A stretch of 64,000 nt of DNA from Nitrospira sp. (GTDB taxonomy: Bacteria > Nitrospirota > Nitrospiria > Nitrospirales > Nitrospiraceae): the NCBI GenBank assembly GCA_015709715.1, contig CP054184.1, positions 1,783,001-1,847,000 on the forward strand, read 5' to 3'. Within the stretch, counting starts at the first letter, position 1, and each line of letters begins with the position of its first letter. The translations under genes were made by a program, and so were the position numbers. A model generated the notes under the pieces. It had not been told where the DNA came from and did not search any database. It saw nothing but the letters and a program-made list of their open reading frames with translations. Of this stretch, positions 5,616 through 48,400 are shown in pieces.

Positions 5616-5652
5616 GTATCGGTTGCGATACAGCCTGTATCCAATTCGATAA
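5616..5652 (+). promoter_or_regulatory. Tandem GTATC-N6-GATAC palindromes (putative activator sites)
   Basis: Two copies: an exact one at 5616–5631 and one at 5637–5652 ending GATAA. Their starts are 21 bp apart, two helical turns. They lie 80–101 bp upstream of the -24 element at 5716, the usual position of enhancer sites for sigma-54 activators. Confidence 0.75.
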
Positions 5653-5715
5653 GACCGGCGCGTAGCGGCGGCAGAGACCTTCGGAGCGCCTTCTGTCTCC
5701 CCGACTGTGCGTGGG

Positions 5716-5731
5716 CGGCACATGCCTTGCT
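5716..5731 (+). promoter_or_regulatory. Sigma-54 (-24/-12) promoter of the patatin gene
   Basis: CGGCAC-ATGCC-TTGCT fits the sigma-54 consensus TGGCAC-N5-TTGCW except for the first base. The invariant GG (5717–5718) and GC (5729–5730) are 10 bases apart. Transcription should start near 5742, upstream of the ATG at 5774. Confidence 0.8.
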
Positions 5732-5773: not shown

Positions 5774-8700
5774 ATGAAGCAAGGCAAGCACCTCAGACTC
5801 GCTGAAATTCTTACAGAAGAAACCGAACTGCTGGATGGCCCCTTCCCGGATCACCACCCCGTGAAGGTACTCTCCAAGGACGATCCCGCCGGAACGCGAG
5901 ACAAAGAGCTTCTCGACGAACTCCGTCGGCACGTCCACGCCCGACACCCGAAACGCGCGGGGCTCTGCTTCTCGGGCGGCGGCATCCGCAGCGCCACCTT
6001 TGGGCTGGGGGTCTTGCAGTCCCTCGCCCGCCTGCAGCTGTTGGATAAGTTCGATTACCTCTCGACCGTGTCGGGCGGAGGCTACATCGGCAGCTGGCTC
6101 ACCGCCTGGATCCACCGTCACCCTCGGGGACTCTCAGGCGTGATAGACGACCTGAACCACGCCCCCAAGACCGGCTCGGCTGAAGCGCCGCCACCGATCC
6201 AGTGGCTCCGAAACTACAGTAACTACCTCAGCCCGCACTTGGGATTTTTCTCCGCCGATTCCTGGACGCTGTTGGGGATCTATCTGCGCAATCTGCACCT
6301 CAACTGGATGGTCCTGTTGCCCCTCCTGCTCTTCCCGCTGCTGATCCCGCGTTGGACCATTGCGCTGACGCAGTTGAACACCTGTACGCAATCGCTTCCG
6401 GCTTGCGGGGCGTCGCTTCAGAGCTATGCGCCCTTCCTGGTAATAGGCGGATTGGCCTTGGCCGTCGTCGCGCTCATTTATCTCCATCTCTGCCGTCCCA
6501 CGCTTCGTACGTATCGACGGGACCGCTGGTGCCAACAGTTGGAATCACAAGGATGGTTTCTTCGCGTCTGCCTGGTCCCCTTGATCCTCTCGGTCTTCTG
6601 CCTCACCACGGCTTGGGCCTGGTATCGGAACGGCGGCGGAGCGCCGGAGCGGTTCACCTATGGACAGGCCATCGTGGGCGGCATGGTCCTTCATACCGGC
6701 AGTTGGCTCTTCGCCATGGCAGTGCTCAAACGTTGGGCCTCGCCCTCCTGGTGGTTACTCGGAGAAACCGGAGCTGTGATTGCCACGGGAGGCCTGGGCG
6801 GCTTACTGCTTCGAAGCGCCCTCGCGAAAGTGCCCGATCACCTCGTCGTCTCAACGTATGCCGAATGGTTCGCCGGTTTTGCGGTACCGGCCGTCCTGGC
6901 GATCTTTCTGTTGACCGCCACGGTATTCATCGGGCTCGCCAGCCGGTTTACGGAAGAGCAGGATCGCGAATGGTGGGGCCGCACCGGTTCCTGGATGCTG
7001 ATCGTGATGGTCATCTGGTCGGGGCTTTCGACCATCGTCATCTTTGGCCCAGGCCTCGTCAGCTGGCTCACGCCGACCGTCGCCGCCTCCCTTGGCGGCC
7101 TCTCCGGCCTCGTGACCTTGGTCTTGGGATTCAGTGCCAAGACCACCGCGCAACAGCAGGAAGAACGGTCGACGGTCACCGCGCTCACCGACCTAGTGGT
7201 GCGGGCGGCCGCCCCGTTGTTCATGGTCTGCGTGCTTATCGCCCTGGCCCTCGGCGCCAGCTGGCAATTGGACCTCTTCGCCCACCAGTACCACATGCAC
7301 CTGAACGATCTCGTCGATCCCAAGCAGACCGGCCTGGGAATCTGGACCGATCCCTGGGGCCACGATCAAGTCCTGCACCATACACCTTGGTGGCTGCTGT
7401 TCCGGTTCACATTGACCGTGCTGTTGCTCGGGCTGGTCATGTCCGTCTTCATCAACATCAACCGCTTCTCACTCCACGCGATGTACCGCAACCGCCTCAT
7501 CCGCGCCTACCTGGGGGCTTCACGCAGGAAAGCGGAGCGGGAAGGAACCTTCAACCCCTTTACCGGCTTCGACAACCTCGACAACCCGGCGATGAGCGAC
7601 ATGCGGTTCGACGAGGTGCGCATCGCCCGGTGGTTCCATGCGAAACACATGACCGTTCCCACCCGCAAAGCACTGGATCTCTATCGGCGGATCCCTCACC
7701 CAACACAGGACCAGCAGCAGACCATGCGGACGACGCTGCAGAAGGACCTGGCGGACGCTCGCCAGCGCAAGGTCTTCAGCCACGTCGCGCATGAGTTGCG
7801 TCTCGGGCCGGCTTCCACGGCGCCCCTCACCGCGTTGCAACAGCCGGGCACGGTCGGCGGACAGAAGGCGAGCGAGTGGTTTACCGCGCTGTTCTTGAAC
7901 GGCCTGCACGAGCATACCCCGCGCCCCCTTCACCTGATCAACGTCGCGCTGAACCTGGTAAAGGGTGACAACCTGGCATGGCAACAGCGGAAGGCCCAAT
8001 CGTTCACCATCAGCGCCCTCCATAGCGGCAGCTGGAATCTGGGGTACCGCCGATCCGAAGACTACGGCGGCAACCGCTACATCGGCCAGCCGCTCTCTCT
8101 GGGCACGGCGCTGGCGATTTCAGGAGCCGCCGCCAGCCCCAACATGGGCTACCACTCATCCTCCGCGGTGACCTTCCTGTTGGCGCTGTTCAACGTGCGG
8201 CTGGGCTGGTGGCTCGGCAATCCGGGACCGGCCGGCGCCGACACCTATCGGAAGGCGTCGCCCACATTATCGATCAGACCCCTGCTGGCCGAAGCGTTCG
8301 GACTCACGGATGCCTGCCACCCCTATGTCTACCTATCCGACGGCGGACATTTCGAGAATTTGGGTCTCTACGAAATGGTGCTCCGCCGCTGCCACTGCAT
8401 CCTCGTGGTGGATGCCGGCTGCGATCCTCGGCTCAATTTCGAGGATCTCGGCAACGCCATCCGCAAGATCCGGATCGATCTCGGCATCGATATCGAAATC
8501 GACCTCGAGCACATCAAACCACAAGGCGAGGCAACAGCCGGCAGCCGCCACCATGCCATCGGCTTGATCCGTTACGACCGGGTGGACGCGAACGCCACCG
8601 CCGGCACCTTGATCTACCTGAAGCCCTCGCTGACCGGCAACGAGCCGTCGGACGTGCTGGACTATGCCGCGCGCCACCCCGCGTTCCCCCATGAATCGAC

Positions 8701-9802
8701 GTCGGACCAGTTCTTCGACGAAGCGCAGTTCGAATCCTATCGCCGGTTGGGCGAGCACGTGACCCAGGAAGTGCTGCGCCCCGCCGTTCACGCAACCCGT
8801 CAGGACTTTTCCACCCTCTGCCATGCCCTCCGCTCCCACTGGGTAGCCACGCCTCCGGGCATGCGCGAGTCCTTTCTCGGAGAAACGGACGACCTCAGGG
8901 ACCTCGAACGGCTCCTGCGCGACGACCCGGATCTCCTTCGGTACGATCTGGAAATCTACCCGGAACTGCGGACGGTGTTCGGCATCGATCCGGGCGACAC
9001 CCCCATGAACCCTCGCGCCGCCCTGCACACGTGCAACCTGCAAATCCAGTTGATGGAACAGGTCTACCTCGCCGTCCATCTGGACGAGTTTCACGTCCAC
9101 GCGCTCAACCGCGGCTGGATGAACCTCTTCCGTCGCTGGACCTCCACGCCGACCTTCCGGCTCTTCTGGCCCACGCTCTGCGGCATGTACAGCCAGCAGT
9201 TCGTACGCTTCGCCGAACAGCACCTCAATCTGGGTCTCGACCACGTCGTGGTGATCGAACCGATGGGCAGGACGAACGACCTTGCCTCGCTGTTCAGGGA
9301 ATTGTCGATCGAATGGGGAAGTGAACCGGCGTACGCGGAGCGGTTTCTCGAAGCCGTGCGGCACCCGCTGCCCTTGGAGGAACCGACCGGCGACCACATC
9401 CGCCGCGCGGCCTGGCAAGCGCGGCTGAATGCCCAGCCATCCGGTCCCGACCGGTCCGGTTCCGGCGAGGTCCTGGCGGTGGTGGCGGCCATTCGTCTGT
9501 CGGTTGAGGGCCATCGGCTCGCACTCTATGGCTGGGTGAGACCGGCCTACCGCGGCTTGGGATTCGGCGGGCGGTTGTTCCAGACCGCCATTCAGGAACT
9601 CCAGCGCTCCTATCCCGGCCATGGCTTGATCGTGGATCTAGGCCCCGAGGACCCGTCCTGGGCCGGCACGTCCGCGCGCAACCTCGGCTGGCTACGGTTC
9701 TATGAGCAGTTGGGGTTCACCAGGGACCGGACGGATGCGAGCCGCTTCCGCATGTGCCGGCTGCTGTCGTTGAACGTGGACCAGACGGACCGGGCGTCGT
9801 AA
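5774..9802 (+). CDS. Patatin-like phospholipase with membrane core and C-terminal GNAT domain
   Basis: 1342 residues from the ATG at 5774, which has GGAG at 5761–5764. An in-frame GTG at 5711 overlaps the sigma-54 promoter and is rejected. Patatin signatures are split: the oxyanion loop FSGGGIRSATFG (~67–78) and nucleophile motif TVSGGGYIGSW (Ser100) at the N-terminus, and the catalytic Asp in SDGGHFENLG (Asp856) far downstream. About eight hydrophobic helices (~150–600) lie between them. The last ~150 residues form a GNAT acetyltransferase fold, with acetyl-CoA loop RPAYRGLGFGGRL near 1258–1270 and FYEQLGF at the end. The predicted role is a membrane-bound lipid acyl hydrolase. The GNAT part may acetylate a substrate or be regulatory; that is not knowable here. 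The nucleophile elbow reads T-V-S-G-G rather than G-x-S-x-G, a variant I associate with large bacterial patatins. Confidence 0.88.
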   Translation: MKQGKHLRLAEILTEETELLDGPFPDHHPVKVLSKDDPAGTRDKELLDELRRHVHARHPKRAGLCFSGGGIRSATFGLGVLQSLARLQLLDKFDYLSTVSGGGYIGSWLTAWIHRHPRGLSGVIDDLNHAPKTGSAEAPPPIQWLRNYSNYLSPHLGFFSADSWTLLGIYLRNLHLNWMVLLPLLLFPLLIPRWTIALTQLNTCTQSLPACGASLQSYAPFLVIGGLALAVVALIYLHLCRPTLRTYRRDRWCQQLESQGWFLRVCLVPLILSVFCLTTAWAWYRNGGGAPERFTYGQAIVGGMVLHTGSWLFAMAVLKRWASPSWWLLGETGAVIATGGLGGLLLRSALAKVPDHLVVSTYAEWFAGFAVPAVLAIFLLTATVFIGLASRFTEEQDREWWGRTGSWMLIVMVIWSGLSTIVIFGPGLVSWLTPTVAASLGGLSGLVTLVLGFSAKTTAQQQEERSTVTALTDLVVRAAAPLFMVCVLIALALGASWQLDLFAHQYHMHLNDLVDPKQTGLGIWTDPWGHDQVLHHTPWWLLFRFTLTVLLLGLVMSVFININRFSLHAMYRNRLIRAYLGASRRKAEREGTFNPFTGFDNLDNPAMSDMRFDEVRIARWFHAKHMTVPTRKALDLYRRIPHPTQDQQQTMRTTLQKDLADARQRKVFSHVAHELRLGPASTAPLTALQQPGTVGGQKASEWFTALFLNGLHEHTPRPLHLINVALNLVKGDNLAWQQRKAQSFTISALHSGSWNLGYRRSEDYGGNRYIGQPLSLGTALAISGAAASPNMGYHSSSAVTFLLALFNVRLGWWLGNPGPAGADTYRKASPTLSIRPLLAEAFGLTDACHPYVYLSDGGHFENLGLYEMVLRRCHCILVVDAGCDPRLNFEDLGNAIRKIRIDLGIDIEIDLEHIKPQGEATAGSRHHAIGLIRYDRVDANATAGTLIYLKPSLTGNEPSDVLDYAARHPAFPHESTSDQFFDEAQFESYRRLGEHVTQEVLRPAVHATRQDFSTLCHALRSHWVATPPGMRESFLGETDDLRDLERLLRDDPDLLRYDLEIYPELRTVFGIDPGDTPMNPRAALHTCNLQIQLMEQVYLAVHLDEFHVHALNRGWMNLFRRWTSTPTFRLFWPTLCGMYSQQFVRFAEQHLNLGLDHVVVIEPMGRTNDLASLFRELSIEWGSEPAYAERFLEAVRHPLPLEEPTGDHIRRAAWQARLNAQPSGPDRSGSGEVLAVVAAIRLSVEGHRLALYGWVRPAYRGLGFGGRLFQTAIQELQRSYPGHGLIVDLGPEDPSWAGTSARNLGWLRFYEQLGFTRDRTDASRFRMCRLLSLNVDQTDRAS

Positions 9803-25038: not shown

Positions 25039-25054
25039 TGGCACATGTGTTGCT
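25039..25054 (+). promoter_or_regulatory. Sigma-54 promoter of the RoxA-like cytochrome gene
   Basis: TGGCAC-ATGTG-TTGCT is a perfect match to the sigma-54 consensus, with GG at 25040–25041 and GC at 25052–25053. Start of transcription is expected near 25065, giving a ~46-base leader. Confidence 0.85.
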
Positions 25055-31320: not shown

Positions 31321-31357
31321 GTATCGTATCGGATACGGATTGCATCCGATCCGATAC
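31321..31357 (+). promoter_or_regulatory. Tandem GTATC-N6-GATAC palindromes upstream of the secretion operon
   Basis: Exact copy at 31321–31336; second copy at 31342–31357 with GCATC in the left half. Starts are 21 bp apart, and the first copy begins 149 bp before the -24 GG at 31470. Confidence 0.78.
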
Positions 31358-31468: not shown

Positions 31469-31484
31469 TGGCATAACCTTTGCG
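31469..31484 (+). promoter_or_regulatory. Sigma-54 promoter of the two-partner secretion operon
   Basis: TGGCAT-AACCT-TTGCG, with GG at 31470–31471 and GC at 31482–31483. Transcription should begin near 31495, 26 bases before the small membrane protein's ATG. Confidence 0.8.
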
Positions 31485-31520: not shown

Positions 31521-31727
31521 ATGGGAGAATCGCGTACCCGCGAGGTTCACATGGTCGCACTCATCTTACTTCTTCTCGGCATGGTGATCCTCCTTGCGGC
31601 AGCCGGCCGCATCTGGATCGATCCCGGCTCCCTCAAGTTGAACCTGCGTGACACCGAGACGAGGCACCTCCCCGGTCAGCCCCACGAGTCCGCACAACTG
31701 TCCGGGAACCGAGACTCGTCCTCTTGA
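31521..31727 (+). CDS. Small single-span membrane protein
   Basis: 68 residues. One hydrophobic helix (VALILLLLGMVILLAAAGRI, residues 12–31) and a polar tail. The ribosome site is excellent (AGGAGG at 31506–31511, nine bases before the ATG) and a sigma-54 promoter stands just upstream, so I treat it as a real gene heading the secretion operon. No family recognised. It could help assemble or regulate the secretion system, or be a leader cistron. Confidence 0.6.
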   Translation: MGESRTREVHMVALILLLLGMVILLAAAGRIWIDPGSLKLNLRDTETRHLPGQPHESAQLSGNRDSSS

Positions 31728-31733
31728 GCAGGA

Positions 31734-31750
31734 GACCAGTCAGACTGGTC
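31734..31750 (+). other. Small intercistronic hairpin
   Basis: GACCAGTC at 31734–31741 and GACTGGTC at 31743–31750 are perfect inverted repeats around one base, lying seven bases after the small protein's stop and 84 before the exoprotein start. Possible RNA-processing or attenuation element. Confidence 0.35.
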
Positions 31751-31833
31751 CCCGTGTTGCGCCGACCGCGAGAATCGGAGATGATCGCAGGCGGTACGGT
31801 AGCCGACTTCCGACGGGCCGAGAGGAAGGCGCT

Positions 31834-34800
31834 ATGGATGGTGCCCGCCGTTCTGTTTCCAAGCTCCGCTCATTCCTTTCGTCGGCTTTGCTGGCCGAGT
31901 GCCTCGTCATTTTTTGCCTGGTGCAGGGAGGGCTGGCTCAATCGACGGCGCCCATCACCTCGTCCGGCCTCAACACCGTCATCACCCCACAGGGCCACGT
32001 ATTCGACATTACCGGCGGGACGAGGCCCGGCAACGGCCCCAATCTCTTTCACAGCTTCGGCGAATTCGGCGTGCCGCCCCATCACATCGCCAATTTCCTC
32101 AACGACTCGGGCCTCGCGACCGCCAACATTCTCGGTCGGGTGACGGGCGGCAATCCGTCCCAGATCTTCGGAACCATTCAAACCACCGGCTTCGGACATG
32201 CCAATCTCTTTTTAATGAACCCGGCCGGCATCGTGTTCGGTCCGACTGCCTCGCTGAACGTCGGCGGCTCGGTCAGCGTCACCACGGCGGACTATCTGCG
32301 CTTCGCCAACGGCGGAATCTTCAACGCGATGCCAGGCCCTCAGGATGCGACCCTTTCCAGCTCACCGGTGGCGGCGTTCGGATTTTTGGGCTCCAACCCG
32401 AACGCCGTCACCGTGCAGGGCGGGCAGCTGGTTTTGTCGGAAGGACAGAGCCTCTCGCTGGTCGGGGGAGATCTGACCATGACGGCCGGCGCACTCGAAC
32501 ACGGCGCTTCGCAGCCGGCTCGCCTCTCGGCACCGGGTGGTCAGATCAACTTGGTGAGCGTCGCCGCCGCCGGGGAAGTGCCGGCACTCGATGCGAAAAG
32601 TCCTGGGAGCGAACCTCTTGCGAATGGAATCGGCAGGTTCGGGACCCTATCTCTTTCTGAAGGGACGAATATTGATACCAGTGCCGACAAGGCCGGGCGA
32701 ATCGTCATTCGCAGCGGGCAATTCACCATGAACGATGCCTCACTCACAGCCATTTCCGGAAACGCTTCGAATCGTGGGTCGGCCACATCGCCCGATTCAC
32801 CAGCTATTGCCATCACAGCGGACACCGTCACCCTCTCCAATGGATCACTGATCATGGCGGATACTCATGGGACGGCTCCGGCAGGGGATATAACTTTCAA
32901 TGTAGATACACTGAGCGCAATAGGGAAAGGTCCGATTCGTATTCAGGTTACCCCTGAGAGCCTTATCACGGGCCCCGACTTTTCCCAAACCGGAGTGCTC
33001 ATTGAAAGTACAAGCCGTAGCCATGACATAGGGGCGGGAGAAGCTGGACGGATCACCATTCAAGGAATCGAGGGTCCAGGAAGCGTCGCGAGGACGGTCC
33101 ATCTGGATGACACCATCATCCATACACGTTCGTTTGGTGGGACCGCGACCACTCCTCCAGGGAGGATCACCATCACGGCAAACTCATTAGCCCTCAGTGA
33201 TCAGGTGGAGATCTATGCCACGACCAATGGCCCCGCGCCGGCAGGCAATGTGGCACTGAATGTCGACACGCTACGATCGAATTGGCATCCCGATGGGTCG
33301 TTCATCGAAGGGAGGCCCGTATTGATCGGCAGCCCCACTGAACATCCTGACCGTACGGCCGGACCGCCAGGAATCGTTACGATCTCGGGGCCTGGCGAGG
33401 AATCGACCGACCCGGCGACGTCCATCATGCTGAGCAATACGGAAATCGACACCTTTGCGGTAGGCGGATCGTCGCCGAGACCGGCTCCGATCATTATCAC
33501 ATCCGACACGGTAGCGCTCAGCAATCTGACTATCCTGGTGACAACTTCAGGCGGCGCGGCACCAGCACCGGCTGGAGACATCGTATTCAACGTGAATACT
33601 TTGCGGGTAAACATGAATCCGGACGGCACGCCGATCGCAAACGCCCATCGTGTTTACCTCAACAGTCCGAGCGGGCGATTGGACAGCACTGCCGGCCCAC
33701 CGGGAACGGTGACCATTTCAGGAATCGCCCAGGAACCAACCGATGCGGCTCAATTGGTCGCACTATACAACGCACAGATTAGCACGGCAGTCGAGGGCGG
33801 TACAGCCGCGTTACCCCCTGGAACCATCACGATCACAGCAGACACCGTGACCCTGGGCGGAAGAACAGAAATCTTTGCCTTTACGACCAGCCCGGCTCCG
33901 GCAGGAGATATCGCCTTTAACGTGAACGTTCTACGAGCGAATGTGAATTCGGATGGCACGCTCATCAACGACGGTCGGCCTCGATCCCTTATCGCCAGCG
34001 TAGGTGGAAGGAGGGACAGTATCGGCGGACGCGCAGGCACCATAACTATATCCGGCGTGGCTCCTGAGGCGTCCGATTCAGCCAAGTTGATCGCGCTCAA
34101 CAATACCGAAGTGAGCACGGCGGTGTGGGGCGGTGCGCCAACCACAGTCCCTGCCACCATCACCATCGTGGCAGATACGCTTCGACTGACAAACAGCCCC
34201 AAAATCGACACCGATACGACCGGCGGAGCCCCTGCCGGGAATATCACCTTCAAGGTGAATACTCTGATAGCGGATCAAGGCACCAATATCAGCAGTCGCA
34301 CATCGGGGGAAGGTCAGGGCGGCTCGATCACGATCGATGCCGGCCGGTCCATTTCATTGCTTCACGGATCCTCCATCACGGCGAGCAGCGCAGGGCCGGC
34401 CGATGCCGGCAACATTACGATCAATGCCGGTGCGCATTTTACCGCTCAACAGGCCTCCGTCACGACCCAGGCCAGCCAGGGCAGCGGCGGCAACATCACG
34501 CTCCAAGCCACCGACTCGATCCAACTCGCCAACAGCCAGCTCAACACATCTGTCCAGGGCGGCCCGACCACTATCGGCGGCAACATCTTCATCGATCCCG
34601 CCATCGTCACCCTGCACAATAGTCAGATCTTGGCCCAGGCCGTCGAAGGCCAGGGCGGCAACATCAACATCGTGGCGGGAACGTTCTTGGCCGATCAGAG
34701 CAGCATCGTGAGCGCCTCGTCTCAATTCGGATTGAGCGGCACCGTGACGATCCAATCACCGGTTTCAAGCCTCAGTGGCACGTTGGCCTCCCTCTCGCAG

Positions 34801-35049
34801 CAGCCACTCCAAGTCCACCCTCTCCTTACCCAACGTTGCGCGGCGCGGGCCGACGGTCGGATGAGTAGCCTCGTGGTGTCGGGCCGAGACTCGTTGCCGC
34901 AGGAACCGGGCGGGTGGCTGTTCAGTCCATTGGCCCTCATGATCCAGGAGCCTGCGGCGCAGGACCGTGGCACGGGGCCTGCAATGGACGACGTGGCATC
35001 GCACAAGCTCCTCGATGGCCTCATTCGAGCCAGAGGCTGTCAGTCATGA
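31834..35049 (+). CDS. FHA-type two-partner secretion exoprotein (TpsA)
   Basis: 1071 residues from the ATG at 31834, with GAGGAAGG at 31822–31829. A long signal peptide ends at GGLAQS (~40). A filamentous-haemagglutinin TPS domain follows (~45–300), with the hallmark NLFLMNPAGIVFGP. Then come about four and a half repeats of ~111 residues (nt ~32800–34270). Each repeat has TITITADTV, PAPAGDIAFNVNTLR, an NPDGT segment and a TISG block. Glycine-rich beta-helix repeats (GGNITLQA, GGNINIVAG) lead to a C-terminal RCAARADGRMSSLVVSGRD, a motif I know from cyanobacterial homologues. This is a predicted surface-exposed or released beta-helix adhesin, exported by the adjacent TpsB protein. Confidence 0.9.
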   Translation: MDGARRSVSKLRSFLSSALLAECLVIFCLVQGGLAQSTAPITSSGLNTVITPQGHVFDITGGTRPGNGPNLFHSFGEFGVPPHHIANFLNDSGLATANILGRVTGGNPSQIFGTIQTTGFGHANLFLMNPAGIVFGPTASLNVGGSVSVTTADYLRFANGGIFNAMPGPQDATLSSSPVAAFGFLGSNPNAVTVQGGQLVLSEGQSLSLVGGDLTMTAGALEHGASQPARLSAPGGQINLVSVAAAGEVPALDAKSPGSEPLANGIGRFGTLSLSEGTNIDTSADKAGRIVIRSGQFTMNDASLTAISGNASNRGSATSPDSPAIAITADTVTLSNGSLIMADTHGTAPAGDITFNVDTLSAIGKGPIRIQVTPESLITGPDFSQTGVLIESTSRSHDIGAGEAGRITIQGIEGPGSVARTVHLDDTIIHTRSFGGTATTPPGRITITANSLALSDQVEIYATTNGPAPAGNVALNVDTLRSNWHPDGSFIEGRPVLIGSPTEHPDRTAGPPGIVTISGPGEESTDPATSIMLSNTEIDTFAVGGSSPRPAPIIITSDTVALSNLTILVTTSGGAAPAPAGDIVFNVNTLRVNMNPDGTPIANAHRVYLNSPSGRLDSTAGPPGTVTISGIAQEPTDAAQLVALYNAQISTAVEGGTAALPPGTITITADTVTLGGRTEIFAFTTSPAPAGDIAFNVNVLRANVNSDGTLINDGRPRSLIASVGGRRDSIGGRAGTITISGVAPEASDSAKLIALNNTEVSTAVWGGAPTTVPATITIVADTLRLTNSPKIDTDTTGGAPAGNITFKVNTLIADQGTNISSRTSGEGQGGSITIDAGRSISLLHGSSITASSAGPADAGNITINAGAHFTAQQASVTTQASQGSGGNITLQATDSIQLANSQLNTSVQGGPTTIGGNIFIDPAIVTLHNSQILAQAVEGQGGNINIVAGTFLADQSSIVSASSQFGLSGTVTIQSPVSSLSGTLASLSQQPLQVHPLLTQRCAARADGRMSSLVVSGRDSLPQEPGGWLFSPLALMIQEPAAQDRGTGPAMDDVASHKLLDGLIRARGCQS

Positions 35050-35067
35050 CAGAGATAGGGACATGAG

Positions 35068-36828
35068 TTGCCGTTCCACACCTTTCATACGACGGTCCGG
35101 AGGATGGGCCTTCTCATGAGCCTCTGCCTGATCCAGGACGATGCCTTGGCACAAGGTGTGCCGCCCCTGCCGCCGGTCTTCGACCCCAGCGGCCGGTCCG
35201 GCCTACCGCCGGCTCCCCTGAAGGAGGAGTTTCAACCTTCAGAGCGACTTCCTCCCAGCTCGATCCTTCCGCAGATCCCACTCGCGCCTCAGCAGCCGCT
35301 CGTGCCTCCATCTGGCGCGCTTCGGCTGTTCGTGCATGATATCCATGTGACCGGCAGCACCGTCTTCTCGGACGCGGAACTGGCTGACGTCACCGCCCCC
35401 TATCGCAATCGTGAACTCACCAGCGACGACCTCGAGCGCGTACGCCTTGCCCTCACGCTCCTCTACGTCAACCGAGGATACCTGACCTCGGGTGCCGTCA
35501 TCCCGGATCAAGACGTGTCGTTCGGGGTCATCGTGATTCAGATCGTGGAAGGCACCCTGTCCCGCATCCAGGTGGAGGGAAACCGTTGGTTTCGCAGCGC
35601 CTATCTGCGCAACCGGGTGGCACGCGGCGTCTCGACGCCTGTCAGTATTCACCCGCTGCAGGAGCGGATCCAACTGCTCCAGCAGGATCCGCGAATCGAG
35701 CGGATCAACGCGGAGCTGCAACCGGGAGATCGGCGAGGAGAGAGCGTGCTGAACGTGCGGGTTCAAGAGGCGAATCCCTTCAAGGCATGGCTCGACTTCA
35801 ATAATTACCAGACACCGGTGGTTGGGGCCGAGCGAGGCCTTGCCACCGTCGCGCATCAGAACGTGACCGGCCACGGCGACCAGCTCACGTTCACCTACGG
35901 TCGGTCGCGCGGCGTCAATCCCATTATCGATGCCTCTTACAATCTCCCGCTCACCGCCTCGGACACGACCTTCACCGCCTACTACCGGCGCAACGCCTTC
36001 CTGGTGGTCGAGAATCCGTTTCGAGCCCTGGATCTCAACGTCGACTCGGAAATCATCGGCATGACCCTTCGGCAGCCGATCTACCGCACCGTGACCGACG
36101 AAGTCGCCCTGTCTCTGACGGGCGAACACCTGTATCTCAAGACCACCTCGGCCTTCGACGTGCCGGGCCTGCCGTCGCTGTTTATCCCCGGTTCCTCGAC
36201 CACCGGCGTGGCCACCGTCAACGCACTTCGCATCGGTCAGGAGTACACCCATCGCACGTCCTCGTTCGTATTTGCGGCCCTCTCCCGGTTCAGCATCGGC
36301 CTGAACGTCCTAGGCAGCACCATCAACAGCGCCCCGCTTCCCGACAGTCGATTCGTGTCCTGGCTGGGGCAAGCACAAGCCATGCAACGCTGGGACGACT
36401 GGGGCGGCCTGCAGCTGATCGGCCGCGTGGCGGCGCAGATCGCCGACGACCGACTCTTCCCACTGGAGCAGATGCCCGTCGGCGGCCGCTTCAGCGTCCG
36501 AGGATACCGTGAAAACAGCCTCGTGCGGGACAATGCCGTGCTGGCGTCTATCGAGCCACGTATCCCGCTCGTGCGGTTCGCTTCGGGAGAAGATCGCGTG
36601 CAACTTGCCCCGTTCGTCGACATCGGCCATGCCTGGAACGCCAAGGGAGCCACACCTGATGTAAGGACCTTGGCCAGTATCGGCGCGGGAATCCGCTGGA
36701 TGATTCTGCCCCAAGAACGCGCCCGGTTCGAGGTCTATTGGGGCCAGCAGTTGAACCACCTCCGTAGCGGAGAAGGCAATCTCCAAGACCACGGCATCCA
36801 TCTTCAACTCGTGTGGCAGGTGCTGTAA
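35068..36828 (+). CDS. ShlB/FhaC/HecB-type outer-membrane transporter (TpsB)
   Basis: 586 residues. An N-terminal signal-like stretch and a proline-rich linker are followed by two POTRA domains (FVHDIHVTGSTVFSDAEL; SRIQVEGNRWFRSAYLRNRV) and a C-terminal 16-strand-type barrel with the conserved lid motif FSVRGYRENSLVRDN. It translocates the exoprotein encoded 18 bp upstream across the outer membrane. The frame starts at a TTG (35068); an ATG at 35104 lies too close to its GGAGG to be convincing, so the exact start is open. The last strand ends HLQLVWQVL. Confidence 0.9.
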   Translation: MPFHTFHTTVRRMGLLMSLCLIQDDALAQGVPPLPPVFDPSGRSGLPPAPLKEEFQPSERLPPSSILPQIPLAPQQPLVPPSGALRLFVHDIHVTGSTVFSDAELADVTAPYRNRELTSDDLERVRLALTLLYVNRGYLTSGAVIPDQDVSFGVIVIQIVEGTLSRIQVEGNRWFRSAYLRNRVARGVSTPVSIHPLQERIQLLQQDPRIERINAELQPGDRRGESVLNVRVQEANPFKAWLDFNNYQTPVVGAERGLATVAHQNVTGHGDQLTFTYGRSRGVNPIIDASYNLPLTASDTTFTAYYRRNAFLVVENPFRALDLNVDSEIIGMTLRQPIYRTVTDEVALSLTGEHLYLKTTSAFDVPGLPSLFIPGSSTTGVATVNALRIGQEYTHRTSSFVFAALSRFSIGLNVLGSTINSAPLPDSRFVSWLGQAQAMQRWDDWGGLQLIGRVAAQIADDRLFPLEQMPVGGRFSVRGYRENSLVRDNAVLASIEPRIPLVRFASGEDRVQLAPFVDIGHAWNAKGATPDVRTLASIGAGIRWMILPQERARFEVYWGQQLNHLRSGEGNLQDHGIHLQLVWQVL

Positions 36829-39114
36829 ATGTGGAGGATTCGTCTCTGCGGCATGCTGCTGTGCTCCGCCCTATATGCACTCGCGTCGGCAGGCCAGCTT
36901 CCCGGCGATGCCCTCTTGGAGCGCGGACGTTCCGCCGCCCGGCAGGGGGCGCTGGAGGAGGCGCTCGTCGCGTGGAAAGAGGCCGCGCAGGAGTACGCAC
37001 AGATCGACCACCGACAGGGACAGATCCAAGCACTCCTGCATGCCGCCGCTGTCGCCCGCACGTTGGGACACCTCAATCAATCCTTCCTCCACCTGGAGTT
37101 GGCGCTGCAACTTGCCCATCGAACCGGAGAACAGCAGTGGGTGACGCTCGCCCTCTCCGAACTCGGCAAAACCGCCCTCGTCAACCGGCAGTTTGAGCAG
37201 GCAACGGAGTACGTGACGGGCGCACTGGCGATGGCGCAGACACAACGCCATACCGTCCTGACCGCCTCGCTCCATAACGAGCTCGGTCTCGTCCGAGTCC
37301 TGCAGGGACAACTCCAAGACGCGCTCGCCTCATTTCACGAGAGCGCCGCCCTGGCTGAAGCGGCAGGGTTCTCCGCGCTTCGTATCCGCGCCCTGATCAA
37401 TGGTGCGGGGGCCGCCATCCGCCTCCGGCAATTCGACGAGGGGGAGGCTGCGCTGAACGCAACGGATGCCCTGCTTTCTGGGAGCCCGGTCTCTTACGAG
37501 AAGGCCGAGGCCCTCATCAATCTCGCGTTAGGCTATCGCCATTTGGCTTTGAGCCATCCCACGGCCCGCGACAGGGCCCTCTCCCGATCGGCAACCCTCC
37601 TCCAGCAGGCCGCGAACCTCACCCCCCTGCCTGAGTTCGACCGGATCGCCTCCTATGCCTACGGCTATCTCGGCCAACTCTACGAAACCGACCATCGCCT
37701 GGAGGAAGCGCTCAGCCTGACCCGCAGAGCCATCTTCGCCGCTCAAGCCGCGCGTGCGCCGGAATCACTCTATCGCTGGCAATGGCAGAGCGGACGTCTC
37801 TTGACCAGGCTGGGCCAGTTGGACGACGCCCTTTCGGCCTATCATGCGGCGGCCGCCACCGTGCAACCGATCCGGCTCGAGATCGCCGCCGGCCCGGTTG
37901 CCGCTCCGGACCCGGACCAGCCTTCTCTCCGCACGCTGTATTTTGAGTTGGCCGACGTGCTGCTGAAACGCGCCGCCCTGTCGGACGACGACCGAACGGC
38001 GGAGCCGTATGTGCGGGCGGCGCGCGACGCGATCGAAGCCTACAAGGCCGCCGAACTGCGCGACTACTTCCGGGATGATTGTGTAGACCGGGTGCAATCT
38101 CGCATCACGGAACTCGACCGATTGTCCCCATCGACCGCCATCATCTACCCGATTGTCTTCGGCGATCGCACGGAACTCGTGGTAAGCGACCAGGACGGCC
38201 TCCGTCGTCTCGCCGTGCCGGTCACGGCCTCCGCCCTGACCGAGGAGGTACGGCGCTTCAGACATCGTCTTGAAAAGCGAACCACCAGAGAGTACCTCCC
38301 CCATGCCCAGCGGCTCTACGACTGGCTCCTCCGTCCGCTTACGGAGCGCCTAGACACCCTCCACGTGGACACGTTGGTGTTTGTCCTCGACGGCCCCCTG
38401 CGGACGATTCCGATGGCGGCGCTCCATGACGGCGAACGGTTCCTCATCTCGCGCTACGCGGTCGCCGTCACGCCGAGTGTCAACTTGACCGATCCGCGGC
38501 CGATCGATCGGACGAGAGCCCAGCTGCTGTCCAGCGGCTTGACCAAGGCCGTTCAGGGGTACCCTCCGCTGCCGCACGTCGCCGAAGAGGTCGCCTACAT
38601 CCATTCGCTGTTCAAGGGAGAGCAGCTCCTCGACAAGAGCTTCATAGCGCCGCGCATCGAAACGGAGTTGCAGGACGGCCGATACGGGATCCTCCACATC
38701 GCCACCCATGGACGGTTTGCCACCGACATCACCCAGTCCTTCCTGGTGACGTTCGACGGGAAACTCACCATGTCGCAGTTGGAGCGGCTGGTCGGGCTCT
38801 TTCGTTTCAGGGAAGACCCCTTGGAGTTGCTGACGCTGAGCGCCTGCCAAACAGGCGTCGGCGACGAGCAGGCCGCGCTCGGACTGGCCGGGATCGCGAT
38901 CAAGGCAGGGGCGAGAAGCGCCTTGGCGACGCTCTGGTTCATCAACGACGATGCATCGAAAGAACTGGTGTCGGAATTTTACCGACAGCTGCATGACACG
39001 GCTCTCTCCAAGGCGCAGGCCTTGCAACGTGCCCAGCTCAAACTGTTGGACGACCGCGTCTACGGCCATCCCGCCTATTGGGCGGCGTTTCTCTTGCTGA
39101 ACAATTGGCTCTAG
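36829..39114 (+). CDS. Exported TPR–CHAT domain protein (caspase-like protease)
   Basis: 761 residues. The ATG follows the TpsB stop directly. A signal peptide (LCGMLLCSALYALASAG) is followed by about eight TPR-like helical pairs (~20–400) and a C-terminal CHAT domain. In it HIATHG gives the catalytic His627 and LSACQTGVG the catalytic Cys673, and both sit in the conserved context up to ATLWFINDDAS. CHAT proteases are usually cytoplasmic; export here suggests a periplasmic role, perhaps processing the exoprotein or its partners. The same TPS–CHAT–DUF928 grouping is known from cyanobacteria. Substrate unknown. Confidence 0.88.
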   Translation: MWRIRLCGMLLCSALYALASAGQLPGDALLERGRSAARQGALEEALVAWKEAAQEYAQIDHRQGQIQALLHAAAVARTLGHLNQSFLHLELALQLAHRTGEQQWVTLALSELGKTALVNRQFEQATEYVTGALAMAQTQRHTVLTASLHNELGLVRVLQGQLQDALASFHESAALAEAAGFSALRIRALINGAGAAIRLRQFDEGEAALNATDALLSGSPVSYEKAEALINLALGYRHLALSHPTARDRALSRSATLLQQAANLTPLPEFDRIASYAYGYLGQLYETDHRLEEALSLTRRAIFAAQAARAPESLYRWQWQSGRLLTRLGQLDDALSAYHAAAATVQPIRLEIAAGPVAAPDPDQPSLRTLYFELADVLLKRAALSDDDRTAEPYVRAARDAIEAYKAAELRDYFRDDCVDRVQSRITELDRLSPSTAIIYPIVFGDRTELVVSDQDGLRRLAVPVTASALTEEVRRFRHRLEKRTTREYLPHAQRLYDWLLRPLTERLDTLHVDTLVFVLDGPLRTIPMAALHDGERFLISRYAVAVTPSVNLTDPRPIDRTRAQLLSSGLTKAVQGYPPLPHVAEEVAYIHSLFKGEQLLDKSFIAPRIETELQDGRYGILHIATHGRFATDITQSFLVTFDGKLTMSQLERLVGLFRFREDPLELLTLSACQTGVGDEQAALGLAGIAIKAGARSALATLWFINDDASKELVSEFYRQLHDTALSKAQALQRAQLKLLDDRVYGHPAYWAAFLLLNNWL

Positions 39115-39115
39115 C

Positions 39116-39901
39116 GTGACCCGACTCTGCGACGCCATGCCTCTGAGCATTTCGAGGACCAAGCCTGCGAGGATGAGTCTCCTGCTGATGGCGGCTCTCT
39201 GGCTACTCTGCGTCGGCGTGCCGGGGGGCGGGGCGGAGACGGATGTCCCGGTCTACCAGGCTCCCCAGATCCTGGCACCGCGGGCTCGCCTTGGGGGGAG
39301 CTTGCGAGGCGGAGAGGGTGACGACCCGGCGATTGTGGCTCTGGTTCCCGACCATGTGGGGATGACGATCAAACAACGTCCGGCCTTCAATTGGTTCCTC
39401 TCGAAACACACGACGCTGCCGATCCGATTCACCCTGATCGATGAGCGTTCGGTGCACGCGCTGGTCGAACATACCCTCCCGCCGCCCGACCAAGCCGGCG
39501 TCCATGCCGTGCGACTCGACGAATTGCAGTTCTCGCTGCAGCCCAACGTCCAGTACCGTTGGTACATTTCGATTATCAAGGATGCCGCTTCGCCGTCGCA
39601 CGATCTCGTGACCGGCGGCATGGTCGAACGATGCGATTTCAGCGAATGTTCGGTCTTGGGCGCCAGCACCGCCTGCACGCGTGACGCGGTGCTGACGAGC
39701 GCCGCCCGGGGCTTTTGGTATGACGCCATGGCCTGTCTCTGTGACCTGATCGAAGCCAATCCTTCCGACAGCGCCTTACGCAGGGATCGCGCCGCCCTGT
39801 TGAAGCAGGTGGGGTTGCGGGATGTCGCCGAATGGGACCTGGCACAATCCCACGCACGCCGCCCGGAACGCGACAGCTCCGCCATCCCGCTCGTCCGCTG
39901 A
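39116..39901 (+). CDS. DUF928 family exported protein
   Basis: 261 residues from the GTG at 39116, one base after the previous stop; an ATG at 39173 heading the hydrophobic MSLLLMAALWLLCVGVPGG is an alternative. The core LVPDHVGMTIKQRPAFNWFLS and later VQYRWYISIIKD match DUF928, a beta-sandwich-like family that in cyanobacteria accompanies TPS exoproteins and CHAT proteins. Four cysteines in the C-terminal third (CDFSEC, TACTRD and CLCD region) may form disulfides. Likely periplasmic and part of the secretion operon; function unknown. Confidence 0.8.
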   Translation: MTRLCDAMPLSISRTKPARMSLLLMAALWLLCVGVPGGGAETDVPVYQAPQILAPRARLGGSLRGGEGDDPAIVALVPDHVGMTIKQRPAFNWFLSKHTTLPIRFTLIDERSVHALVEHTLPPPDQAGVHAVRLDELQFSLQPNVQYRWYISIIKDAASPSHDLVTGGMVERCDFSECSVLGASTACTRDAVLTSAARGFWYDAMACLCDLIEANPSDSALRRDRAALLKQVGLRDVAEWDLAQSHARRPERDSSAIPLVR

Positions 39902-39948: not shown

Positions 39949-39964
39949 TGGCACGGCTGTTGCT
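39949..39964 (+). promoter_or_regulatory. Sigma-54 promoter of the 31-residue peptide gene
   Basis: TGGCAC-GGCTG-TTGCT is a perfect consensus match (GG 39950–39951, GC 39962–39963). No GTATC-N6-GATAC palindrome lies within ~200 bp upstream, so another activator may act here. Confidence 0.8.
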
Positions 39965-40191: not shown

Positions 40192-40485
40192 ATGAACCAA
40201 TTCGTATACCTGCGGTCGCACAAGCGGCAACGAATGACCGTGAGTTTGCCGACGGACCTCCTGGAACGCGTGCGTGATGCCGCCTATTGGACACCGGGCA
40301 GCACCATGGCCGGTCTGATCTCATCGGCGCTGGAAGATCTCTTGAAGAACTTGGAATCGCAGAACGGTCGCCCCTTCTCCCCTCGCCTCCAAGAGCTGAA
40401 ACCGGGCCGCCCTCGCGTCGCCAAGACAGCGCTCCCCGCTGTATCGGAAGACATACATCCTGTATCCAACCAGATACGCGCCTGA
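40192..40485 (+). CDS. Ribbon-helix-helix-like DNA-binding protein
   Basis: 97 residues. Residues 13–60 (RMTVSLPTDLLERVRDAAYW, then MAGLISSALEDLLKNLE) fit the strand–helix–helix pattern of CopG/Arc-type repressors. GAGGAA lies seven bases before the ATG. The C-terminal tail is basic and proline-rich. No toxin-like partner is adjacent. The last 45 bases of the gene carry the tandem palindromes, so coding and operator functions overlap. A local repressor role is plausible. Confidence 0.68.
   Translation: MNQFVYLRSHKRQRMTVSLPTDLLERVRDAAYWTPGSTMAGLISSALEDLLKNLESQNGRPFSPRLQELKPGRPRVAKTALPAVSEDIHPVSNQIRA
40441..40477 (+). promoter_or_regulatory. Tandem GTATC-N6-GATAC palindromes inside the 3' end of the RHH gene
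   Basis: Copy one at 40441–40456 has CATAC in the right half; copy two at 40462–40477 is exact. Starts are 21 bp apart. The first begins 149 bp before the -24 element at 40590, identical to the spacing upstream of the secretion operon. Confidence 0.75.
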
Positions 40486-42764: not shown

Positions 42765-44825
42765 ATGAGCGCCGAGCGACAGAGGGCGGCCTCCCTCGTG
42801 CTGGTACTCCTTCTGACCGCCGACCTGGCTGCCGGGACTTCCCCCGCCCGGTCGACGGCGAAGGGAGAGGAGCGTTCCGTCGTTCCGTCCGGCGACGAAC
42901 TGCAATTGCTGAAGGAAGAAGAGACGGTGAGCATCGCCTCCCTCTATGAACAGCCGATCTCCCAAGCTCCGGCGAACGTCTACGTGATCACCGACGAAGA
43001 CATCCGGCAATCCGGCGCCGTCGATCTCCCAACGGTGTTGCGCCGCGTGCCGGGGCTGGAAGTCATGCAGATGACGGGCGCCGACTTCAACGTGAGCGCC
43101 CGAGGCGACAACCAACCGTTCGCGAATAAGATGCTGGTAATGGTGGATGGGCGCTCCATCTATCTCGATGTGCAGGGGAATGTGTATTGGAAGTCCATTC
43201 CGGTCACGCTCGTCGAGATCAAACGCATCGAGGTCCTGAAAGGCCCCGCCTCCGCCATGTACGGGTTCAACGCCTTCGACGGCGTGATCAACATCATCAC
43301 CAAGTCGCCGGAAGAAATGAAAGGCACGACGCTGCAGTTCGGCGCGGGGGAATTGGGCACCATCACGAGTTCAGCGGTCCAAGCCGGCACGGCCGGAAAG
43401 CTGGGGTACCGCCTGTCGATCGGCCGCGACCAGACCCAACAATGGCGCGACCACGACGCCCTGGGGTTCAGGACTCACCGGTTCAATGTCCAGACCAACT
43501 ATGCCCTCTCCTCGACCGCGAAGCTTCAAGTGTCCGGCGGCCTGGTCGATACGAATCGCTATGACGGGCAGGTCGGGGAGGTGACCAGCAACTCCCTTCG
43601 CCCGTCATTCGGATATGCCAACGCGCTCTATGAACAGGGCGCCTTTCTTGTCCGGGCCTGGTGGTCCGGGTATACGGACGATGCGACGATTGCTCCCACT
43701 CCGCCGTTGTCCAATCTGCTGCGCGTGACGGATCGTAACGGTCAGACGACCAATCCCTTCCGCGGCAATACATACAACCTGGACCTTCAACATGCCGCGA
43801 CCCTCTGGGCCGGCAACCGCATGCTGTATGGTCTGACCTATCGCCACAATTCCCTTTCGAGCCCCGCCATCGATCGATTCAGCCGAGAAGACCGGCTCGG
43901 GCTGTTTCTTCAGAACGAGTGGCGTGCGGCCCCCACACTGACCCTGGTCGCCGGGATTCGTTATGACCTGCATAGCCAGATCAACGGAACATGGAGCCCC
44001 CGCGTCGCGCTCCTCTACCAGCCGATCGAGGGCCACACCTTCCACCTCTCCGGGTCCGTCGCCTATCGGCCACCGACGTTGTTCGAGTCGCATCAAGACC
44101 AACGGGTGACCACCACGATCCCCACGGGCCTGCCCTTTCCACCGTCTATCTCGACGACCATTCCGGTCTCGGGGTCCACCCGCCTCGCGCCAGAACAGAT
44201 CCTATCCTACGAAGCGGGGTATCAAGGCTGGTACTGGAAGCATCGCCTTCGTCTCCGCGCCGATGTCTTTTTCAATCACGTCTCGGACCTAATCGGCAGT
44301 CGGGTCACCGCTGGGGGGACCTCCGAATTCGTCAACGACCAGGGCTCCGCCGACATCTATGGCGGCGAGGCGGGAGTGGAAGTCCTGGCCACCAACTGGT
44401 TGAGCGGATTTGCCAACTACGCCTACGAGGAAATCGGGCAAACCTTCACGGGAACGGTCCGCAGAGGCGCCCCCCGCTCGAAGATCAGCGCAGGCCTCCG
44501 CGCCGAGTGGGATAACGGCTTGAGCGGCGAAATCAGTTACTACTACGTCGGCGCCGCGACCTATCCTATTGCGCAAACCTTCACGAACCTCGCGGCGCTT
44601 CCCGGGACTGGTGTCCTGGTGCCGCTCGACCGCGTCGGCAGCTACAACCTGTTGAACCTCCGAGCCGGCTACCGGATTTGGCAACAGAAGGCCGCCGCCG
44701 GTTACCTGCGCGAGGCGGAACTGGCTCTGTCCGTGTTCAATGCGTTGAACGATACACACAAGGAGCATCCGCTGGGCGACGTGATCGGCCGGCGCGTGAT
44801 GGGATGGGTAACCCTCAGATTTTAA
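42765..44825 (+). CDS. TonB-dependent outer-membrane receptor, copy 2
   Basis: 686 residues. It has the same architecture as the preceding receptor, with the plug nearly identical (NVYVITDEDIRQSG, GADFNVSARGDNQ, MLVMVDGRSIYLD) and more divergence in the barrel and extracellular loops; it ends MGWVTLRF. Probably a tandem duplication that diversified in ligand-facing loops. The short signal peptide (LVLVLLLTADLAAG) starts at the ATG at 42765. A REC–PAS protein begins 32 bp after the stop. Confidence 0.93.
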   Translation: MSAERQRAASLVLVLLLTADLAAGTSPARSTAKGEERSVVPSGDELQLLKEEETVSIASLYEQPISQAPANVYVITDEDIRQSGAVDLPTVLRRVPGLEVMQMTGADFNVSARGDNQPFANKMLVMVDGRSIYLDVQGNVYWKSIPVTLVEIKRIEVLKGPASAMYGFNAFDGVINIITKSPEEMKGTTLQFGAGELGTITSSAVQAGTAGKLGYRLSIGRDQTQQWRDHDALGFRTHRFNVQTNYALSSTAKLQVSGGLVDTNRYDGQVGEVTSNSLRPSFGYANALYEQGAFLVRAWWSGYTDDATIAPTPPLSNLLRVTDRNGQTTNPFRGNTYNLDLQHAATLWAGNRMLYGLTYRHNSLSSPAIDRFSREDRLGLFLQNEWRAAPTLTLVAGIRYDLHSQINGTWSPRVALLYQPIEGHTFHLSGSVAYRPPTLFESHQDQRVTTTIPTGLPFPPSISTTIPVSGSTRLAPEQILSYEAGYQGWYWKHRLRLRADVFFNHVSDLIGSRVTAGGTSEFVNDQGSADIYGGEAGVEVLATNWLSGFANYAYEEIGQTFTGTVRRGAPRSKISAGLRAEWDNGLSGEISYYYVGAATYPIAQTFTNLAALPGTGVLVPLDRVGSYNLLNLRAGYRIWQQKAAAGYLREAELALSVFNALNDTHKEHPLGDVIGRRVMGWVTLRF

Positions 44826-44857
44826 GGCCGGAGTCTTCCGGGACTCGGGAGGATGTC

Positions 44858-47800: not shown

Positions 47801-48361
47801 GACCGGTGGGTGCTCACCAACGGCCGGCCCCTGGAAATCGAGGAACTCGCACCCCATGCCGACGGCCTGCACACCTACCTCTCGGTCAAGGTCCCCATCC
47901 GAGACCGCTCCGGCCACGTGTTCGCCATGTGCGGCATTTCCACAGACATCACGGAACGCAAGCGAACGGAGGAACAACTGCGCCTCAGCGAAGAACGGCT
48001 GCGCCTGGCCCTCTCCGCATCGGACGTGGGTATCTGGGACTGGGACGTGGCGTCCGGACGCCTCTATTGGTCGGCCGGCGTCGAAGCGTTGTTCGGGCTT
48101 CCGCCGGGCTCCTTCCCGGGCACCTATGGCGCCTATCTCGACCTGATTTATCTGGAGGATCGGGGCTCGGTGCTCGCGCATCTGGACCAGAGCCTGGCCG
48201 CCCAGTCTGCCGTCAATGTCGCGCACCGCGTCCTGCGGCCCGACGGCTCGCTGCATTGGCTGGCCTGGACCGGACGCATTCAGCGGACTCCCGAAGGAAG
48301 TCCGATCCGCGTGCTGGGCATCGTTCATGAAACGACGGGGCCCTCCATCGGTCGGCGGTAA
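44858..48361 (+). CDS. Receiver–PAS(8) protein without an output domain
   Basis: 1167 residues. The ATG at 44858 follows GGGAGGA. A canonical receiver (VVDDDPDI, phospho-acceptor Asp58, YLTKPYN) is followed by eight PAS/PAC units up to the end; the last finishes in an ordinary PAC motif (RVLGIVHETT) only a few residues before the stop. No HisKA, HATPase, GGDEF, EAL or DNA-binding domain is present, and none is visible in other frames after the stop. It may act as a phosphorylation-gated sensor scaffold for the kinase two genes downstream. Soluble. Confidence 0.9.
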   Translation: MTITGESRSILVVDDDPDIVLGLQDFLDHDGYQVSIAGSCAEALAQARRHQYNAVLLDLGLPDGDGSTVLKSLQETHPHLPVIILTAFTSTDRTVGSLTQGAFAYLTKPYNRDELRAVLQRAVGVQALAAKVEHAEHALSESEARFRSLVEAATDSIILADGRGTILSWNRAAARLFGYTDEEVRGRPMTILMPPRHRAAHERGLARVRDTGRSRLIGHLVELEGLRKDGSEFPLELSLAMWTTDGEVFYSGIIRDITQRRRAEDILDRLRHLHEVILTQAGEGIYGLDKTGTCTFVNPAAATLLGYEPAEIIDRSMHSLLHHSKSDGGVYSLDDCPIYASLRDGLVHRVSTDVFWRKDGTAIPVEYVCTPIIEKGAVAGAVVVFRDITERKEAERAIEESRERFRQLAEHIKEVFWMTDPSKEQVIYISPGYEEVWGRTCESLYARPLSWLEAIHPEDRQRILAAAMNQRQAVPYDEEYRIVRPDGSERWIWDRAYPIYDDKGTIYRLVGFAEDITEDKRVEAALVESERRYRALFDDNPSMYFMVDTEGTVLSVNRAGAERLGYGVEELVGTSVLQVFHPEDREAVRSHLAECLGDMGQPRRWEFRKVRKDGSIIWIRETAQAVRNERQQPVVLLVCEDITAIKEAELALHDSEEFKNQILRSSADCIKVLDLEGRLQYINDAGQTLLEIADVAAYHNKPWADFWVGEDRHAALAALEAAKAGDIGKFVGFCPTASGQAKWWDVQITPMFDTQGFSRRLLAISRDITEYKQVQESLRVSEERLAAVIRGSNDGFWDGHVLPGIAWHDPQTPVWWSPRVREMLSYSEAEFPNVLDSWASRLHPDDRDRVFQLLSDCTQTEMSQYDVEYRLLNKQGEYLWVRARAEVLQRDEQGRAVRMAGSLQDITARKCAEEALHRSEELLRSIVNNATAAIYAKQADGRYLMVNSRFEELFHVRAEQVPGKTDHDLFPADIADVFRQNDRWVLTNGRPLEIEELAPHADGLHTYLSVKVPIRDRSGHVFAMCGISTDITERKRTEEQLRLSEERLRLALSASDVGIWDWDVASGRLYWSAGVEALFGLPPGSFPGTYGAYLDLIYLEDRGSVLAHLDQSLAAQSAVNVAHRVLRPDGSLHWLAWTGRIQRTPEGSPIRVLGIVHETTGPSIGRR

Positions 48362-48400
48362 CAACGTGCCCTGCGTCAGCCGCGCCGAACGCTCGCTTCG

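Follow-up and report, generated by a model that had tools for sequence, protein, structure and literature searches.

Gene organization

The window analysed here, a 64,000-nucleotide stretch of DNA from Nitrospira sp., a nitrite-oxidising bacterium (contig CP054184.1, positions 1,783,001 to 1,847,000), contains an open reading frame (ORF) at 5774-9802 (+) without internal stop, which encodes a protein of 1342 amino acids. The protein combines a split serine hydrolase, a membrane domain inserted between the hydrolase halves, a helical module and a C-terminal GNAT acetyltransferase domain. The gene lies in a 4.16-Mb single-contig genome, and its nearest named relatives were those of Nitrospira, e.g. 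Ca. Nitrospira defluvii (L072). The ATG at 5774 was favored as the start over the GTG at 5711, because the GTG would place the promoter within the coding sequence. The features of the locus were as follows.

5627..5642 (+): palindrome GATACAGCCTGTATCC, candidate upstream activator site (UAS), of the form GATAC-N4/5-GTATC conserved in relatives
5716..5731 (+): sigma-54-type -24/-12 promoter CGGCACATGCCTTGCT, one mismatch, conserved in relatives
5774..9802 (+): whole gene, 1342 amino acids, stop codon at 9800-9802
5936..6253 (+): N-terminal hydrolase half, residues 55-160, with the SGGGIR oxyanion loop at 5972-5989 and the Ser100 codon at 6071-6073 within TVSGGG
6254..7543 (+): membrane domain, residues 161-590, ten transmembrane helices predicted from hydropathy, model and loop charges
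7655..7921 (+): variable insert, residues 628-716, dN/dS 0.313, 41.5% mean identity
7922..8827 (+): C-terminal hydrolase half, residues 717-1018, with Asp856-Gly-Gly at 8339-8347, which superposes on cPLA2 jointly with the N-terminal half
8861..9247 (+): helical module, residues 1030-1158, with NRGWMNLFRRW, the best-conserved portion of the C-terminal extension
9248..9769 (+): GNAT domain, residues 1159-1332, with the coenzyme A (CoA) loop RGLGFG at 9551-9568 (residues 1260-1265)

This layout is real and conserved. A continuous match to residue 1331 or beyond was found in 23 of the 29 genomes of the genus, and the architecture is therefore not due to chance.

Motifs and fold of the hydrolase

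The motif SGGGIR begins at residue 67, TVSGGG sets the nucleophile as Ser100, and DGGHFEN begins at Asp856. A first-pass annotation made from the sequence alone had given both catalytic residues exactly, with a spacing of about 750 residues (756 by our count), and its view that a membrane core splits the hydrolase was borne out by the position of the membrane block between Ser100 and Asp856. The Pfam profile PF01734 (Patatin) matched residues 64-112 with 34.7 bits (cut-off 27.7), and the match covered profile positions 1-47 of 191 only. In the alignment of 30 cores, comprising that of the window, 14 fused genus-mates, the fused outsider L050, 11 unfused family members, two distant forms and one sequence truncated by its contig, the residues S67-G70, I71, R72, S97-T98-V99-S100-G101-G102 and D856-G857-G858 were invariant in all 30. 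The Asp thus stands in the D-G-G motif expected of patatins, while the nucleophile elbow reads T-V-S-G-G instead of G-x-S-x-G. This context had been noted correctly, but its invariance across the alignment showed that it is a family trait, and the departure from G-x-S-x-G is not specific to this gene.

The AlphaFold model of residues 1-1040 was of middling confidence, with a mean predicted local distance difference test score (pLDDT) of 73.1 and a predicted template modelling score (pTM) of 0.67. When this core model was compared with the Protein Data Bank (PDB) using Foldseek, the ten best matches were all human cytosolic phospholipase A2 (cPLA2). Realignment with cPLA2-delta (5izr) gave a Z-score of 25.6 and a root-mean-square deviation (rmsd) of 4.2 over 344 residues, and the scores for cPLA2-alpha (1cjy), PlpD and patatin were 23.1, 15.8 and 14.8, respectively. 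The aligned ranges on 5izr spanned model residues 1-1018; therefore both parts of the gene form one hydrolase domain in the model, into which the membrane block is inserted. A profile search of PDB sequences also placed cPLA2-delta first, weakly (E 0.02), with Ser100 aligned to the serine of GISGS, the nucleophile of that enzyme. The Gly two positions before this serine is Thr here, so that the G-x-S-G-S motif itself is not present, and PF01735, the cPLA2 profile, was absent among the Pfam matches at E up to 1. The catalytic fold of the predicted model is thus of the cPLA2 type. Identification as a patatin was right in so far as the PF01734 match and the DGG motif are concerned, but the fold lies nearer to human cPLA2 than to plant patatin.

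Membrane domain and topology

Ten hydropathy peaks, averaged over relatives, were found between residues 183 and 551, and ten long helices occupied the same region of the predicted model, in place of the roughly eight membrane helices counted earlier. The loops predicted to be inside carried 21 Lys and Arg residues versus four in the outer loops, indicating an orientation with the N-terminus inside. Since the number of helices is even, both hydrolase halves and the GNAT domain are predicted to be cytoplasmic, where CoA is, and by the same charge rule both termini of the protein would lie inside. The variable insert of about 90 residues (628-716) evolved fast within the cytoplasmic part; it occurs within the genus, and the aligned relatives of other genera lack it.

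The C-terminal helical module and GNAT domain

Residues 1025-1342 were modelled apart from the core, with a mean pLDDT of 75.5 and a pTM of 0.69. The model showed the helical module, followed from about residue 1159 by the complete GNAT order b1-a1-a2-b2-b3-b4-a3-b5-a4-b6-b7. The PDB fold matches listed (Foldseek, VIA) were GNATs, the best with a Z-score of 14.0 and an rmsd of 2.8 over 142 residues, at identities of 13-21% in the aligned regions. In the whole protein, PF13508 matched residues 1237-1316 with 28.0 bits (cut-off 27), while PF00583 reached 20.6 bits, slightly below its cut-off of 20.7; with the C-terminal 250 residues alone, the scores rose to 31.1 and 24.8 bits. All 14 members of the GNAT alignment matched both profiles at E up to 1. 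The (R/Q)xxGx(G/A) CoA loop is present as RGLGFG and was retained in the aligned orthologs except L024 (RGLRHG), and the segment FYExxGF was conserved in the Nitrospira GNAT. The GNAT domain recognized in the first-pass annotation was in this way confirmed by Pfam, by the predicted fold and by the fold matches, which, together with its conservation, rule out a misread C-terminus.

Conservation and history within Nitrospira

A match to the protein was present in 28 of the 29 genus genomes, including that of the window. Besides the window's own genome, the 22 with a continuous match showed 71-76% identity. Matches in G002, G008 and G024 were fragmentary, and G014 had none. In G022 the match ran to residue 1174 and then broke, the GNAT domain alone being disrupted behind an intact core and module of 1166 residues. 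In G016, only pieces of residues 949-1028 and of the GNAT domain were left of the gene (L068), as a remnant between the UPF0114 and HerA genes.

The ratios of nonsynonymous to synonymous substitution rates (dN/dS), given as medians over 54 close pairs within the genus, took values of 0.079 and 0.048 in the two hydrolase halves and 0.055 in the helical module; they were higher in the GNAT domain (0.133), the membrane block (0.165) and the insert 628-716 (0.313). The GNAT domain is therefore under constraint, but the constraint is stronger on the hydrolase and on the module that carries the domain.

Forms without the GNAT domain also occur. In the tree of 56 cores, the unfused Nitrospira proteins (genera g2, g4, g7 and g9), which end right after the hydrolase, formed one clade (support 1.000) beside the fused forms, and the verrucomicrobial L086 was sister to all Nitrospira (0.997). 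The fused side was less firmly united (0.936, with some low inner supports). At most loci with flanks, fused and unfused forms alike were bordered by a UPF0114 gene and a HerA-like ATPase gene and so shared one slot. The tree and this shared slot make loss of the module and the GNAT domain in one clade the simpler account; a recent gain of the fusion in Nitrospira only was rejected on the placement of L086 together with the unfused sister clade in the same slot, subject to the under-sampling of module-less forms and the possible misbinning of L086 noted below. Relocation of the GNAT domain elsewhere in the unfused genomes was likewise ruled out, as none of the 11 matched the C-terminal profile.

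In two of the GNAT-less Nitrospira loci (L052, 7083-9634 (-); L056, 7247-9883 (-)), two genes with lipoprotein-like N-termini stood between UPF0114 and the membrane hydrolase, one of them encoding a patatin-domain protein of 472-478 amino acids. The GNAT-bearing locus of the window has neither.

Distribution beyond Nitrospira

We used the C-terminal alignment, with two peptide patterns as seeds, to scan a genome collection of 84,980 species and obtained 55 loci. Because the outer relatives were picked up via the pattern of the helical module, forms lacking the module are under-sampled. The core and the module were in a single ORF in 51 of the 55 loci. In L101, L104 and L116, a natural split, the module formed a small ORF of its own immediately behind that of the hydrolase, with no GNAT-like tail, and L124 consisted of the module alone. 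The Nitrospira GNAT profile matched 16 of the 55 loci at E up to 1e-3, namely the verrucomicrobial L086 and 15 records of Nitrospira type, but not L085, which is the broken gene of G022. L086 is a contig of a metagenome-assembled genome (MAG) and could be misbinned. The layout itself is thus real, as first described, but the pairing of a membrane hydrolase with a GNAT domain is no one-off, since the canonical form also occurs in this verrucomicrobial MAG and the core with its module is widespread.

By record title, the remaining loci belonged to Acidobacteria, Pseudomonadota, Gemmatimonadota, Plesiocystis and others, and most of them ended in shortened tails bearing a FRIQDHLRRMGLGR-type motif. 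Forty tails were considered and nine were excluded, either as canonical (L083, L086) or as short, split or unlike (L101, L104, L116, L119, L121, L123, L124). The loop [RQ]xxGx[GA] was found in 28 of the 31 aligned shortened tails versus 28% of shuffled tails, whereas the distal half of the GNAT fold was missing from them. PF00583 matched six of the 31 at E up to 1, the best at 6.7e-4, and in a PDB profile search the top two of three matches were GNATs (E 0.067 and 1.7). The tails of other phyla are treated here as probable, though unproven, reduced GNATs. Retention of the CoA loop in spite of the missing distal half would fit a CoA-binding role older than catalysis. Relatives of the core were also found on plasmids, annotated as 'patatin-like phospholipase family protein' or as hypothetical.

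Sigma-54-type promoter and related sites

The sigma-54-type site ends 42 bp before the ATG, and the palindrome starts 89 bp upstream of that site. From 49 loci, 46 yielded an upstream region, 28 of them distinct. GG[CT]A[CT]-N5-TTGC was present in 20 of the 28 distinct regions versus 0.005 in shuffles, the GATAC-N4/5-GTATC palindrome in 22 versus 0.0005, and both together in 19; the shuffle rates are not to be read as probabilities, because the upstream sequences are related. An alignment of 13 upstream regions showed the same promoter and palindrome, and GATAC-N5-GTATC occurred at two places only in the 4.16-Mb genome. The window as a whole had no excess of sigma-54-like sites (21 versus 26 expected at two mismatches), so that the match by itself would not carry the assignment, which depends on conservation. 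Both elements are strongly conserved in an upstream region that is otherwise poorly so, and the earlier proposal that the gene belongs to the sigma-54 regulon is well supported. A parallel in promoter layout, though not necessarily in motif, is provided by PEP-CTERM genes, which are described as preceded by sigma-54 sites with an upstream motif (PMC1569441).

Sites of the same kinds were observed elsewhere in the window. At 31332-31347 there was a palindrome of the same type and, 137 bp further on, a sigma-54-like site at 31469-31484 (TGGCATAACCTTTGCG), the pair lying upstream of a run of two-partner-secretion, CHAT and DUF928 genes at 31648-39901. Palindrome-like sites were present at 40452-40467, upstream of TonB receptor genes at 40691, and at 61358-61373. 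Exact TGGCAC-N5-TTGCW matches were found at 25039-25054, 56 bp before a RoxA-like cytochrome gene at 25111, and at 39949-39964. Apart from these sites, a pair of very long ORFs, 44822-48364 (-) and 44678-48361 (+), overlap each other on opposite strands; the minus-strand one had no Pfam match.

Comparison with known systems

The closest known relatives in fold are the group IV cPLA2 enzymes (cPLA2-alpha and cPLA2-delta; PF01735), with which the Nitrospira protein shares the hydrolase fold (Z 23-26), the GGGxR oxyanion motif, a serine at the position of the GISGS serine, and an insertion between the nucleophile and the Asp. The lid region of cPLA2 sits where the Nitrospira protein has its ten-helix insertion. 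In contrast to these enzymes, the Nitrospira protein is bacterial, has a membrane insertion instead of a soluble lid and Thr for Gly two positions before the serine, contains no C2 domain and no PF01735 match, and carries the extra helical module and the GNAT domain. Patatin-like phospholipases (PF01734; patatin, PlpD, CapV/CapE) resemble it in the N-terminal 47 profile positions, the Asp-Gly-Gly and a fold match at Z of about 15, but here there is no G-x-S-x-G, membrane helices lie within the 756 residues between Ser and Asp, and the fold is nearer to cPLA2. The bacterial membrane proteins annotated as 'patatin-like phospholipase family protein' (about 880-1400 amino acids) are widespread and have the same SGGGIR...TVSGG...DGGH core with a hydrophobic block, and in many cases the NRGWMNLF module; unlike the present protein, most lack a canonical GNAT domain and end in the shortened GNAT-like tail or, in unfused Nitrospira, after the hydrolase. 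Known GNATs (Ard1/Naa10, RimI, YncA, phosphinothricin acetyltransferase) have the complete fold order and the RxxGxG loop in common with the C-terminal domain, which differs from them in being fused to a membrane hydrolase. A known defence system and a phage origin were ruled out, as there was no PADLOC match and no match in phages. The parts of the open-access literature consulted on patatin-like proteins with GNAT or acetyltransferase fusion, transmembrane helices, cPLA2 or Nitrospira contained no description of this architecture.

Proposed function

The reading we favored, which we hold to be about evenly poised between right and wrong, sees the protein as a cytoplasm-facing serine acyl hydrolase of the inner membrane. 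It would belong to the cPLA2/patatin superfamily, be expressed from a sigma-54 promoter and carry a GNAT arm that binds CoA and either adjusts or supplements lipid turnover. The hydrolase would fold from residues 55-160 and 717-1018, and with ten transmembrane helices inserted between the nucleophile and the Asp, the Ser100/Asp856 dyad, with SGGGIR as its oxyanion hole, would be held at the inner leaflet, where it may cut an acyl ester of a membrane lipid. We infer this chemistry because the catalytic motifs are invariant and from the fold. The helical module would present the cytoplasmic GNAT domain, which may bind acetyl-CoA or another acyl-CoA, and the most likely role of the arm would be to couple lipid turnover to the CoA pool, either as a CoA sensor or through acetylation of the hydrolase or of a lipid product. 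Such coupling is suggested by the shared topology, the conserved linker module and the CoA loop kept across phyla; acetyl transfer and the substrates of both domains are putative. Transcription would be switched on via an activator bound about 90 bp upstream.

Several observations weigh against this reading. The segment 845-860, which includes Asp856, had a pLDDT below 50 in the core model, and the GNAT and hydrolase folds come from separate predictions. Homology between the tails and GNATs is weak: the hhalign probability was 6%, PF00583 reached just those six of 31 tails, and direct cross-searches gave at best E 0.017. The GNAT domain also evolves faster than the hydrolase (0.133 versus 0.048-0.079), has decayed in G022, has a damaged loop in L024 and is absent from a whole Nitrospira clade, so that tight coupling of GNAT and hydrolase is not universal. 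Loss of the GNAT domain without loss of the hydrolase marks the arm as accessory.

An alternative is a two-step lipid remodelling, in which a lysolipid or free amine, liberated at the inner leaflet by the hydrolase, is acetylated or acylated by the GNAT domain of the same protein. We consider this unlikely, although some points speak for it: the Nitrospira GNAT is canonical and complete with its RxxGxG loop and FYExxGF segment conserved, it is under purifying selection, and both active parts are predicted on the same side of the membrane. The hydrolase persists without the GNAT domain, however, in the unfused clade with the same gene neighbours and in G022, the shortened tails elsewhere have no distal half, and no lipid-modifying GNAT was prominent among the fold matches listed. 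The relaxed constraint on the GNAT domain, and its loss or decay while the hydrolase was kept, suggest that the acetyltransferase may act as an accessory or as a sensor and not as a second enzyme within a single pathway.

That the chain holds two independent enzymes, with the GNAT domain acetylating proteins or small amines and the phospholipase serving as a membrane anchor only, seems quite improbable. The fold matches did mix protein N-terminal, lysine and small-molecule acetyltransferases with no clear winner, and the looser constraint on the GNAT domain would agree with such an arrangement, but the intervening module is conserved like the hydrolase and accompanies the core in loci of several phyla, which suggests that the arm belongs to the hydrolase. 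That the GNAT domain is a decaying passenger without a present role on what is merely a membrane phospholipase is very unlikely, since in spite of the decay in G022, the damaged loop in L024, the remnant in G016 and the missing gene in G014, the continuous match reaches the domain in most of the genus, purifying selection acts on it, and it is present in a MAG that branches outside Nitrospira.

The CoA-tuned membrane hydrolase that we favor may also be extended, more tentatively and with the chances rather against it, to a broad bacterial family of membrane cPLA2-type hydrolases in which the GNAT arm gates hydrolysis by the acetyl-CoA or acyl-CoA pool, complete in Nitrospira and reduced to a binding-only version in most other phyla. 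The GNAT-less Nitrospira orthologs in the same gene slot offer a ready comparison for the role of the arm. Enzymes of the cPLA2 type are best known from animals, and a bacterial polytopic version found in several phyla, with the lid turned into a membrane domain, would be a new way to place a phospholipase at the membrane. A CoA-binding arm would tie lipid turnover directly to the central carbon status of the cell. The interest of the finding lies more with the family, for which 'patatin-like' is the best annotation in use, than with this one gene.

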